Source: Bacteroidia bacterium
GTDB lineage: Bacteria > Bacteroidota > Bacteroidia > Flavobacteriales > Flavobacteriaceae
Reading direction: 5' to 3'
DNA: 64,000 bases
NCBI GenBank assembly: GCA_030430535.1
Contig: JAUIKY010000004.1
Span: 1 to 64,000 of the forward strand
A program made the translations under genes and the position numbers. Positions 32,779 to 36,339 of the stretch are shown in pieces; the first letter of the stretch is position 1; each line of letters starts with the position of its first letter. The notes beneath the pieces were generated by a model. The model was not told the DNA's origin. It searched no databases and saw only the letters and a list, made by a program, of their open reading frames with translations.

Positions 32779-34050
32779 ATGTTACAAGTTCCCTTTATTA
32801 GAGAAAACAAAGAATTAGTGATAAAGCGATTGGCAAAACGAAACATTGATGCCGCGCAAATGATCAACGATGTCATTACTTTTGATGAGGACAGAAGACG
32901 CCTTCAAACCGAATTGGACAATACTTTGGCCGAATCGAACACCCTTTCAAAAGAAATAGGGAATTTGTTCAAATCGGGTGAAGTTCAAAAAGCCAATGTG
33001 CTGAAGGAAAAAACGAGCCAGTTGAAAGAGGCGTCGAAGGAATTGACCGAGGCTTTAAACCAAAAAGCCGAGGCGCTTAACGAGCTGCTTTATAAAATAC
33101 CCAATGTGCCCAACGACATTGTGCCACAAGGCGGTACTGATGCCGATAACGAAGAAGTGTTTCGGGCGGGCGATATCCCAAAATTGCACGAAGGCGCACT
33201 GCCGCACTGGGAATTGGCCAAGAAATACGATATTATCGATTTCGAATTGGGCAATAAAATTACGGGAGCCGGATTTCCGGTTTACAAAGGAAAAGGGGCA
33301 AGGTTGCAACGCGCGTTGATTGCTTATTTTTTGGATAAAAACACCGCGGCTGGTTATACTGAATACCAATTACCGCATTTAGTGAACGAAGCTTCTGGCT
33401 TTGGCACAGGGCAGTTACCCGATAAAGAAGGGCAGATGTACCACGTAACGGCCGATAATTTATATTTGATTCCAACGGCCGAGGTGCCAGGAACCAATAT
33501 TTTTAGGGATGTGGTTTTAAATGAAAGCGATTTGCCTATTGGCATTACGGGCTATACGCCGTGTTTCCGTCGTGAAGCTGGAAGTTACGGTGCACACGTT
33601 CGCGGACTGAACCGTTTGCACCAATTCGATAAGGTGGAGATTTTGCGCGTAGAACACCCAAGCAAATCCTATGAGGCTTTAGATGGTATGGTGGCGCACG
33701 TAAAAACCATTCTGGAAGAATTAAAATTACCTTACAGAATTTTAAGGCTGTGTGGAGGCGACTTAGGTTTTACCTCGGCACTGACTTATGATTTTGAGGT
33801 GTTTTCAACAGCGCAAGACCGTTGGTTGGAAATTTCATCGGTGTCTAATTTTGAAACTTTTCAAGCCAATCGATTAAAATTGCGATTTAAAAATAGCGAG
33901 GGTAAAAATGAATTGGCGCACACCTTAAACGGAAGTTCGTTGGCACTGCCACGTGTGCTTGCCGGAATTTTGGAAAATTGCCAAACCGAATCGGGTATCG
34001 TTATTCCTGAGGTTTTACAACCGTACACCGGTTTCAAAATTATTGATTAA
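32779..34050 (+). CDS. serS: Seryl-tRNA synthetase
   Basis: 423 aa, normal length. The N-terminal tRNA-binding coiled coil spans about residues 25-110. Class II motif 2 (TPCFRREAGSYGAHVRGL...HQFDKVEI) and motif 3 (GSSLALPRVLAGILENCQ) are complete. It charges tRNA-Ser with serine. Confidence 0.97.
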   Translation: MLQVPFIRENKELVIKRLAKRNIDAAQMINDVITFDEDRRRLQTELDNTLAESNTLSKEIGNLFKSGEVQKANVLKEKTSQLKEASKELTEALNQKAEALNELLYKIPNVPNDIVPQGGTDADNEEVFRAGDIPKLHEGALPHWELAKKYDIIDFELGNKITGAGFPVYKGKGARLQRALIAYFLDKNTAAGYTEYQLPHLVNEASGFGTGQLPDKEGQMYHVTADNLYLIPTAEVPGTNIFRDVVLNESDLPIGITGYTPCFRREAGSYGAHVRGLNRLHQFDKVEILRVEHPSKSYEALDGMVAHVKTILEELKLPYRILRLCGGDLGFTSALTYDFEVFSTAQDRWLEISSVSNFETFQANRLKLRFKNSEGKNELAHTLNGSSLALPRVLAGILENCQTESGIVIPEVLQPYTGFKIID

Positions 34051-34095
34051 AAAAGTAGGTTAAAACGTTCTTTTTTAGGAAGTTTGATTTAAAAT

Positions 34096-34146
34096 AATCG
34101 ACAAAATACACAAAACACATGTTGTTTGGTGTAATTTTTGTCGATT
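34096..34146. terminator. Stem-loop after serS
   Basis: AATCGACAAAATACAC (34096-34111) pairs with GTGTAATTTTTGTCGATT (34129-34146), nearly perfectly apart from a small bulge, over a 17-nt loop, and is followed by a T-rich run at 34151-34157. It may terminate serS or belong to the leader of the small ORF at 34210. Confidence 0.5.
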
Positions 34147-34209
34147 TTCTTGTTTTTTTAAGTTTTATTTCTCAAGTTCGTCTTCCCAAATCTAATTAAC
34201 CTGCTGATT

Positions 34210-34332
34210 ATGAAAAATGTTAAACGCATTGTTTTGTTAATTGCTCTCATTTTTTTCGCGACAAAAGTATTGTCTTCAGATTTCAAGCTGTTTAAATCTG
34301 AAGGTGAAACTACAGCGATTGTTAGCAAATAA
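34210..34332 (+). CDS. Small secreted or membrane peptide, 40 aa (candidate)
   Basis: ATG at 34210, TAA at 34330; too short for the ORF track. The product has a basic start and a hydrophobic core (MKNVKRIVLLIALIFFATKV) that reads as a signal peptide or membrane anchor. A short polar tail follows (SSDFKLFKSEGETTAIVSK). No family recognised. It sits alone in the 513-bp serS/TPR gap, between a stem-loop and a structured region closed by a strong terminator. Confidence 0.5.
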   Translation: MKNVKRIVLLIALIFFATKVLSSDFKLFKSEGETTAIVSK

Positions 34333-34360
34333 GAGTTTTTCTTTTATTTACTTGATACGA

Positions 34361-34487
34361 TAAAATAGCCTGTCTTGCAAAGCAGGAGTATAATGGCTGT
34401 CCCCAATCGAGTAGTTAATTAACAAGTAGTTAATAGAACATTATTTTTGGTTGGTTTGTGCCCGGATGTTTGTCCGGGCATTTTTTT
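34361..34487 (+). ncRNA. Candidate structured RNA or 3' UTR downstream of the 40-aa ORF
   Basis: This non-coding stretch can fold: AGCC (34367-34370) pairs with GGCT (34395-34398), enclosing CTTGC-AAA-GCAGG (34374-34386). A strong AGGAG at 34384-34388 sits five bases before an ATG (34393) opening a 9-codon ORF (MAVPNRVVN), unusual in a genome with few Shine-Dalgarno sites. AGTAGTTAAT is repeated at 34410-34434. The segment ends at the terminator at 34459-34487. It could be a small RNA, a leader or a long 3' UTR. Confidence 0.35.
34459..34487 (+). terminator. Strong intrinsic terminator
   Basis: TGCCCGGA (34459-34466) pairs perfectly with TCCGGGCA (34473-34480) over a 6-nt loop, followed by seven T. 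It ends whatever transcript covers the small ORF and the structured segment, and lies 77 bp before the TPR gene. Confidence 0.88.
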
Positions 34488-34563
34488 CCCATAGATTCCC
34501 AAAAACTTCTAAAAATATCGCCCCTTATCTAAAACTGAAATTCACATTTGTTATATTTACCGC

Positions 34564-36339
34564 ATGAGGCCTTTATTTATCATATTGTTTTTCATTACTA
34601 CGGTGGTTTTTTCCCAAAGCGATTTAATTGCGAAAGAATATTTTAAAAATGGGGAATACGAAAAAGCCTTGTTGGAATACAAAAAACTGTATGCCCAATC
34701 GCCATCCAATATTAATTTTATCAACCAAATTGTAAGTGCGCACCAGCAGTTGGAGCAGTATGATGAAGCCGAAACGTTTTTGTTGCAACTTATGGAACGG
34801 GTGAGGTACCCGGCCTTTTTTGTGGAGTTGGGCTATAATTACCAGCTTAAAAACGATTTAGAAAAAGCGCAGACTAATTACGGCATGGCTTTAAAGTCGA
34901 TAGACGAGCGGCCGTCGAATGTATTTACGGTAGCCCGAGGGTTTCAAAACCATTCGTTGTTGAAAGAAGCTGCAACGGCCTACGAAAAGGCGATGGCACT
35001 TAACCCCGATTATAATTTTAACATACAACTGGCGCAGGTTTACGGCGAGCAGGGGCAAATTGAAAAAATGTTTGGCAGCTACCTCGATTTTGCCATGTCG
35101 AACCCCATTGTTTTAAGCGATGTAAAACGAAATATAAACGAATTTATAACTGAAGATTCCAACAACGAAAACAACATCCTGTTCAGAAAAATGCTACTGA
35201 AAAAAATGCAGGAACAGCCCGACATATTGTGGAATGAATTGCTTAGTTGGTTATTTATTCAGCAAAAAGATTATAAAAAAGCATTTGTACAGGAAAAGGG
35301 GATTTACAATAGGGAGCAGGCCGGTTTGCAGCGTATTGAGGAGTTGGCAGGAATTTGCGTAAAGGAAGATGAGATAGAAACCGCCAAGGAAATATATCAT
35401 TACCTAATTGAAACGGCGCAAAACCCCGACACCAAACTCAATGCCCATTATCATTTGCTTCAGCTTCAAATAAAGGAAAGTTCGGCTAAAGATTATCAAA
35501 AGATTAAAGAGCAATATTTAGAACTACTGAACAATTTTGGGAATGAAGCTAACCTATTGAGCTTGCAAATATCGTATGCGCACTTTTTGGCGTTTTACAT
35601 GAACGACCCTAAAACCGCCAGTGGTTTTTTGGAAAACCTTTTGGAAGCACCGTTATCGCAAATGGAACAGGCACAACTTAAATTGGAACTCGGCGATATT
35701 TTAGTGCTTCAGGAAAAATTTAACCAAGCGTTGATTTACTACACGCAAATACAACGTAATTTAAAAAACAGTACCATTTCGCAAGAAGCCCGTTTTAAGG
35801 TGGCGAAGGCGAGTTACTACAAAGGCGATTTTAAATGGGCCGAGTCGCAACTTAAAATATTAAAATCGTCCACCTCACAGCTCATTGCCAACGACGCCCT
35901 CGATTTAAAGTTGCTGATAACCGATAACAAATACGAAGACTCGCTGCAAACCGCACTAAAAAAATATGCCAAGGCCGATTTGTTAGCTTTCCAAAACCGG
36001 AATGATGAAGCCATAAACTTGCTCAACACCATTTTGAGTGAACATAAAACCGAACCCATTATTGCCCAGGCTTTGTACAAACAAGCCCAATTGTTCGAGT
36101 TGAAAAAGGAATTTGAAAAAGCCAAAGCCAATTACGAGGTGCTTATTGAAAATTACCGCGACGGTATTTTGGTGGACGATGAGCTGTTCCATTTAGCAAA
36201 AATCTTCGAAAACCAATTAAGCCAACCCGAAAAAGCCAAACAGCTTTATGAAAACATTATTTTTAACCATGCCGATAGCATTTATTTTGTCGATGCCAGA
36301 AAACGGTTTAGGGCATTGAGAGGCGATGCGATAAATTAA
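34564..36339 (+). CDS. Periplasmic tetratricopeptide-repeat protein
   Basis: 591 aa with a signal peptide (MRPLFIILFFITTVVFSQS). TPR units cover most of the length, for example EYFKNGEYEKALLEYKKLYAQ, FLLQLMERVRYPAFFVELGYN, AATAYEKAMALNP and, near the C-terminus, EKAKANYEVLIENY and PEKAKQLYENIIFNH. It probably serves as a protein-interaction scaffold in the cell envelope. No neighbour points to a specific complex. Confidence 0.88.
   Translation: MRPLFIILFFITTVVFSQSDLIAKEYFKNGEYEKALLEYKKLYAQSPSNINFINQIVSAHQQLEQYDEAETFLLQLMERVRYPAFFVELGYNYQLKNDLEKAQTNYGMALKSIDERPSNVFTVARGFQNHSLLKEAATAYEKAMALNPDYNFNIQLAQVYGEQGQIEKMFGSYLDFAMSNPIVLSDVKRNINEFITEDSNNENNILFRKMLLKKMQEQPDILWNELLSWLFIQQKDYKKAFVQEKGIYNREQAGLQRIEELAGICVKEDEIETAKEIYHYLIETAQNPDTKLNAHYHLLQLQIKESSAKDYQKIKEQYLELLNNFGNEANLLSLQISYAHFLAFYMNDPKTASGFLENLLEAPLSQMEQAQLKLELGDILVLQEKFNQALIYYTQIQRNLKNSTISQEARFKVAKASYYKGDFKWAESQLKILKSSTSQLIANDALDLKLLITDNKYEDSLQTALKKYAKADLLAFQNRNDEAINLLNTILSEHKTEPIIAQALYKQAQLFELKKEFEKAKANYEVLIENYRDGILVDDELFHLAKIFENQLSQPEKAKQLYENIIFNHADSIYFVDARKRFRALRGDAIN

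Follow-up and report, generated by a model that had tools for sequence, protein, structure and literature searches.

Organization of the serS-TPR gap

The window analyzed here is a stretch of 64,000 nucleotides from a member of the Flavobacteriaceae. Between serS and a TPR-repeat gene it contains a gap of 513 bp (34051-34563) without any annotated gene, at the coordinates that an earlier note on this DNA had given. On the plus strand of the gap we find, in order, an open reading frame (ORF) of 40 codons, then a hairpin and another structured segment, and finally a terminator of 10 bp with its T run (Table 1). Taken by sequence and arrangement, these features appear to form a compact gene, whose position is kept across the family.

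Table 1. Features of the serS-TPR locus, in window coordinates
Feature	Position	Strand	Evidence or remark
serS	32779-34050		upstream flank
Imperfect palindrome, overlapping the promoter-like block (window lineage)	34096-34146	.	opposite-strand self-match 85%, E = 1.7e-6
Promoter-like block, ATCGAt-n-AAatG ... cGTTGTTtaACGAtTTTTT ... TTTcTTTTG	34097-34152	+	48 upstream regions
Presumed 5' UTR, conserved GAAGTTAG ... ACC-AAA ... AACCTACT	34153-34209	+	column conservation, 48 sequences
40-aa ORF, hydrophobic micropeptide MKNVKRIVLLIALIFFATKVLSSDFKLFKSEGETTAIVSK	34210-34332	+	homologues, pN/pS
P0 hairpin, AGCC...CTTGC AAA GCAGG...GGCT	34365-34400 (nested stem 34367-34398)	+	fold, compensatory changes
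Core conserved RNA, models R1 and R2	34398-34486	+	R1 match, covariation, 95/301 family genomes
P1 helix, CCAATC/GGTTGG	34403-34408/34449-34454	+	core RNA model
P2 helix, ATTAAC/GTTAAT (window)	34418-34423/34429-34434	+	core RNA model
Unpaired conserved AU-rich strand AGAACATTATTTTT, between P2 and P1	34435-34448	+	
P3 intrinsic terminator, GTGCCCGGATGTTTGTCCGGGCAT then T run	34458-34487	+	10 bp; conserved pairing
TPR-repeat gene	34564-36339		downstream flank

The segment 34365-34487 is predicted to fold into three consecutive hairpins, ending in the terminator, with an energy of -40.6 kcal/mol. Dinucleotide shuffles of the same segment average -25.2 kcal/mol (sd 3.3; z = -4.69), and none of 200 shuffles folds as well. 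The foldable segment and the textbook terminator described in the earlier note are both present in this structure, the former as the nested stem of P0 and the latter as P3; a terminator scan finds one such element, against 0.6 expected in shuffles. That note had also singled out an AGGAG followed by an ORF of nine codons (ATGGCTGTCCCC..., 34393-34422). This pair is found only in the window's species and its nearest relative (L002), and the ATG is absent elsewhere; we reject the nine-codon ORF as a meaningful gene, given that it is not conserved.

The ORF is conserved as a protein

Homologues of the micropeptide occur in about 50 genera, placed between serS and the TPR gene, and share the consensus MKN[IVLF]KRI[VLI]xLxxLxxxxxKVLF, to which the window's lineage adds a tail such as SDFEIxKSENKTTAIVSK. 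The entropy at codon positions 1, 2 and 3 of the ORF is 1.01, 0.23 and 1.39 bits, respectively. Mean pS and pN are 0.71 and 0.18 in the long form's core, and 0.76 and 0.24 in the short form described below. The ratio pN/pS is 0.25 in the core and 0.40 in the tail, whereas the same DNA read in the other two frames gives 0.89 and 1.64. Judging from these substitution patterns, we conclude that the small ORF is real and that it evolves like a translated, selected protein, with purifying selection in its own frame only.

The short form, found in about 20 genera, comprises 21-23 aa, and its stop codon follows directly after the hydrophobic core (MKNIKRIVVLVSLVVMVSKIFF*). Since such a peptide ends where the hydrophobic core ends, nothing is left to secrete; secretion is therefore doubtful, and the product probably resides in the membrane instead. 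As a general function, cleavage of a signal peptide to set free a mature peptide is improbable, and the sequence suggests one membrane helix whose N terminus is basic. Thus, the ‘40-aa secreted peptide’ of the earlier note holds as regards a conserved ORF of 40 aa, but its secretion does not find support. Compared with Pfam and NCBIfam, the peptide and its homologues match no family at the cut-off, the only hit being DUF2633 at 15.7 bits, where 25 are required.

A structured RNA downstream of the ORF

When the 3' regions are aligned with MAFFT, blocks shared across genera emerge in the order CCCAATC ... AATTGAATCAT ... ATGATTAATAGCACATTTATTTTGGTTGGT ... terminator. From seven sequences of other genera we built a model, called R1, that consists of P1 (CCAATC/GGTTGG), P2 (ATT(g)AATCAT/ATGATTAAT) and the terminator P3. 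R1 finds the window's RNA with 57.4 bits and E = 1.1e-8, despite the differing P2 arms of the window.

We aligned 56 sequences to the model. In this alignment 90.2% of cells are paired (82.8% in shuffles), two-sided changes occur in 20 of 23 pairs (9.9 in shuffles), and the covariation score is 0.280, as compared with 0.153 for shuffled alignments and at most 0.070 for slid partners, all of these being figures that lean towards the model, to which the alignment was fitted. Clear independent compensatory cases can be seen by eye, as in P3, where CCTGAAC/GTTCAGG in some sequences corresponds to CCCGAAT/ATTCGGG in others. P3 as a whole is paired in 99.3% of cells, with two-sided changes in all 8 of its pairs, but such pairing is expected of any terminator, and the informative helices are P1 and the inner part of P2.

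The hairpin P0 is a feature of the window's own lineage. Its outer helix reads AGCC/GGCT in the window, AGTC/GACT in most of 23 aligned close relatives, and AATC/GATT in L214; among these relatives 98.9% of it is paired, and two of its four pairs change on both sides. The inner arms vary and yet pair (CTTGC/GCAGG, TTTTGTGC/GCACGAAA, TTCTTG/CAAGAA, TTCTTAT/ATAAGAA, TTTTCG/CGAAAA). Because MAFFT does not align the inner helix in register, we judged it sequence by sequence, and it reaches a shuffle p <= 0.05 in 17 of 46 cases. The earlier note had proposed a covariation test of this stem and a search of Rfam: compensatory changes are indeed found in relatives, in the outer helix and in the inner arms alike, and Rfam 15 yields no family at the locus at either gathering or relaxed thresholds, the best sub-threshold match being at chance level (22 bits, where 80 are required).

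Distribution and synteny

A DNA search of 40 relatives finds the same gap in both remaining genomes of the genus as well as in additional genera. The TPR gene could be placed in 132 of 151 genomes of the family, and we retrieved the regions upstream of it; its named relatives belong to Algibacter, Flaviramulus, Flavivirga, Tamlana, Confluentibacter, Seonamhaeicola, Mariniflexile, Hyunsoonleella, Gaetbulibacter, Bizionia, Lacinutrix and others. All 33 RNA loci inspected have serS on one side and the TPR gene on the other.

A second model, R2, matches 95 of 301 family genomes, once in each (E <= 0.002). At laxer settings the true matches (E <= 1.4e-7) are widely separated from the noise (E >= 0.018). 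The same search across the order, in 348 genomes, gives eight matches, all within the Flavobacteriaceae. Among the genomes listed for g148, a very large genus that is probably Flavobacterium, judging by how many of its genomes are sampled, R2 has no match, and an exact search of viral contigs for the RNA core motif returns no match.

On a weakly resolved tree of serS we could place 107 loci that have serS upstream. The ORF is present in 53 of them (34 long, 19 short), the RNA only in 7, and neither in 47; in most of these last, serS and the TPR gene lie close together, with little space left between them.

Two loci differ in the length of the gap. In L003 (genome G002, of the window's genus) the gap is 1251 nt, with approximately 730 bp of extra sequence between serS and the RNA/peptide locus. 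In L062, the 887-nt gap includes a further hydrophobic ORF of 37 aa (MNKLKEILADKDKQFNYVFFTGVTLGTLMMMYIVVMQ) between the terminator and the TPR gene, an arrangement seen in one genome.

The upstream region

The promoter-like block upstream of the ORF can also be given as ATCGATnAAATGC ... CGTTGTTTAACGATTTTTT ... TTTcTTTTG. It contains candidate -33 (TTG) and -7 (TnnnTTTG) elements together with an upstream box, and its length is nearly invariant among the 20 of 48 upstream regions that were realigned (57 nt in the window, 56 in the rest). The block may act as a promoter, but its TTG-20 nt-TnnnTTTG arrangement fits the Bacteroidetes pattern TAnnTTTG (PMC9723704) only loosely, as the -7 box departs from it. 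In 7 of 9 genomes searched, a sequence model of the block, R3, has a single strong match, which lies at the locus; the block is absent from G103 and G122, both of which bear the RNA without the ORF. It is thus practically unique to the serS-TPR locus, and we reject it as a regulon motif. The sole second match above noise outside the locus, a weaker one, lies at G007:C16:148286-148325 (L283; E = 2.4e-4).

We also considered long-range pairing between the 5' UTR and the 3' RNA. The native pairs have a mean energy of -9.40 kcal/mol versus -9.31 kcal/mol for pairs swapped between species, and 77 of 200 swaps are as good. There is therefore no co-evolution of the 5' UTR with the 3' RNA, and this pairing is rejected.

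Another promoter-like sequence, TTTGTTATATTTAC (34548-34566), ends only a few bases upstream of the TPR start codon. The aligned loci preserve it, and the TPR mRNA may have little or no leader.

RNA and peptide are separable

Six loci (L080, L082, L090, L104, L106 and L144) have the RNA without a recognizable peptide, and so does L098, in which the RNA is degenerate. In the weakly resolved serS tree, L080, L082, L090 and L098 fall among ORF-bearing relatives, as losses, and L104, L106 and L144 in the other part of the family. Conversely, one locus, L033, has the peptide without the RNA. Taken together, these cases indicate that RNA and peptide are separable and that the RNA is not a mere by-product of the coding sequence. 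Most RNA-bearing loci do carry the ORF, and the RNA might therefore work chiefly as its 3' UTR. The RNA part is nevertheless conserved and structured independently of it, as would be expected of a dual-function RNA.

Interpretation

We propose that the locus may encode a dual-function sRNA, composed of a structured RNA and a micropeptide, and we put this reading at about an even chance. A promoter roughly 60 nt upstream of the ORF would give rise to a transcript of about 330 nt ending at the terminator (34487). The 5' half of this transcript would be translated into a hydrophobic peptide of 22-40 aa in the inner membrane, and its 3' half would fold into P0 (in the window's lineage), P1 with P2, and the terminator, leaving the AU-rich single strand exposed between P2 and P1. 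The RNA half would have an activity of its own, for which base pairing with other mRNAs is the likeliest means, and could persist without the peptide. The computation shows conservation, purifying selection on the peptide, covarying helices, a single copy, synteny, and an RNA and an ORF that are independent of each other; we infer the promoter, both ends of the transcript, its translation, the location in the membrane and action in trans. More tentatively, and with somewhat less than even confidence, we suggest that marine Flavobacteriaceae possess here a family of bifunctional RNAs not catalogued before, in which the structured RNA half is older than the peptide half or survives it.

Searches for the complement of the exposed strand show no consistent enrichment over a reversed-pattern control (24 versus 10, 21 versus 15, and 44 versus 49). 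Elsewhere in the genome of the window, the complement has a single exact match of 16 nt, which lies over a possible start codon of a 502-aa ORF. Analogous start-codon sites in two sister species fall at unrelated positions, in different genes, and these searches yield no conserved target.

The main rival to a dual-function sRNA is an mRNA of the usual kind that encodes a small membrane protein, in which case the peptide is the sole product and the 3' structure is a stabilizing or processing 3' UTR with its terminator. Strong selection on the peptide, its presence at the majority of RNA-bearing loci, and the placing of the RNA directly 3' of the ORF with a terminator at its end agree with such an mRNA; yet the RNA persists without a recognizable ORF in the six loci named above, and the unpaired stretch after P2 is kept in sequence, beyond the need of a generic 3' UTR. 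We consider this rival unlikely, but with a substantial chance nonetheless. Far less credit is due to the idea that the gap is merely the terminator and spacer of serS with chance ORFs in it: the locus is intergenic, AT-rich and close to a terminator, but selection on the ORF, covariation and genome-wide specificity contradict this reading, which we regard as scarcely credible. The earlier suspicions of a region more organized than ordinary spacer, and of a small RNA, are well supported by a single-copy, syntenic and covarying RNA family.

A ‘regulatory leader’ had likewise been suggested, which here would mean a cis-acting leader or attenuator of the TPR gene, with the read-through of the terminator depending on whether the short ORF is translated and P1/P2 refold. 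Strict synteny, and a short ORF with hairpins and a terminator about 77 nt upstream of the TPR start codon, favor this view, but the TPR gene has, in all aligned loci, a promoter-like CATTTGTTATATTTAC of its own just upstream of the ATG, serS and TPR occur together without the RNA/peptide locus in 47 of 107 genomes, and there is no obvious anti-terminator, P1, P2 and P3 coexisting in the minimum-energy fold. The locus might also be a type I toxin-antitoxin system, with the hydrophobic peptide as toxin and, as antitoxin, an antisense RNA transcribed from the opposite strand. Type I toxins that act on membranes are small and have a single hydrophobic segment; the peptide resembles them in both respects, and its mRNA is structured. 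However, the position of the minus-strand TAnnTTTG is not conserved across species, with at most 13 of 48 in one 5-nt bin, and the locus is single-copy, at one fixed site, without an exact match of the RNA core motif in viral contigs, as opposed to the usual mobile, multi-copy pattern of such systems. Because of the points that count against each, both explanations are less likely: attenuation is improbable, and a toxin-antitoxin system slightly more so. Nothing specific supports the earlier description of the peptide as ‘toxin-like’, to which we likewise assign a low probability.

Relation to known systems and significance

In Flavobacterium psychrophilum, Rfp18 is an intergenic structured sRNA with several stem-loops, conserved beyond one species, that affects protease mRNAs, and the independent sRNAs of this organism are typically without coding potential (PMC9723704). 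The serS-TPR RNA is similar to Rfp18 in being an intergenic, structured Flavobacteriaceae RNA with several stem-loops and conservation beyond one species; unlike Rfp-type sRNAs, it carries an ORF, and it has no R2 match in the listed g148 genomes. By sequence, it may still be identical with Rfp18 or one of its companions. At gathering threshold, Rfam yields a single match in the window, Flavo-1 RNA (RF01705; 39872-40020, minus strand, 51.4 bits). It too is a flavobacterial structured RNA motif, but it has no match at the serS-TPR locus, whose RNA is single-copy at a fixed site. In the dual-function sRNAs SgrS/SgrT and RNAIII/delta-haemolysin, one transcript combines a short ORF with a structured RNA part; the layout is the same as that proposed here, and no sequence relation is claimed. 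TimP is a membrane-acting toxic protein of Salmonella that is repressed by the sRNA TimR (PMC7667032). The serS-TPR peptide can be likened to TimP as a very short and hydrophobic membrane peptide (its membrane location being predicted); TimP has TimR as its sRNA regulator, whereas we found no antisense or paired regulator for the serS-TPR peptide.

Both RNA and peptide are new to Rfam, Pfam and NCBIfam, the comparison with Rfp18 and its companions being by description only, and the kind, an sRNA with a small ORF, is already known. Flavobacteriaceae are major degraders of algal polysaccharide, and their regulatory RNAs and micropeptides are little catalogued. The serS-TPR locus adds a peptide outside the coverage of Pfam and NCBIfam. 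It also offers a well-delimited candidate that is single-copy and present in many genera of the family, and the models describing it can be run again. Its RNA-only, short-peptide and long-peptide lineages allow the functions of RNA and peptide to be separated by natural comparison. If the bifunctional reading is true, then RNA alone, RNA with a 22-aa peptide, and RNA with a 40-aa peptide would form a natural series, in which a membrane micropeptide can be seen to be acquired, extended and lost by a regulatory RNA.
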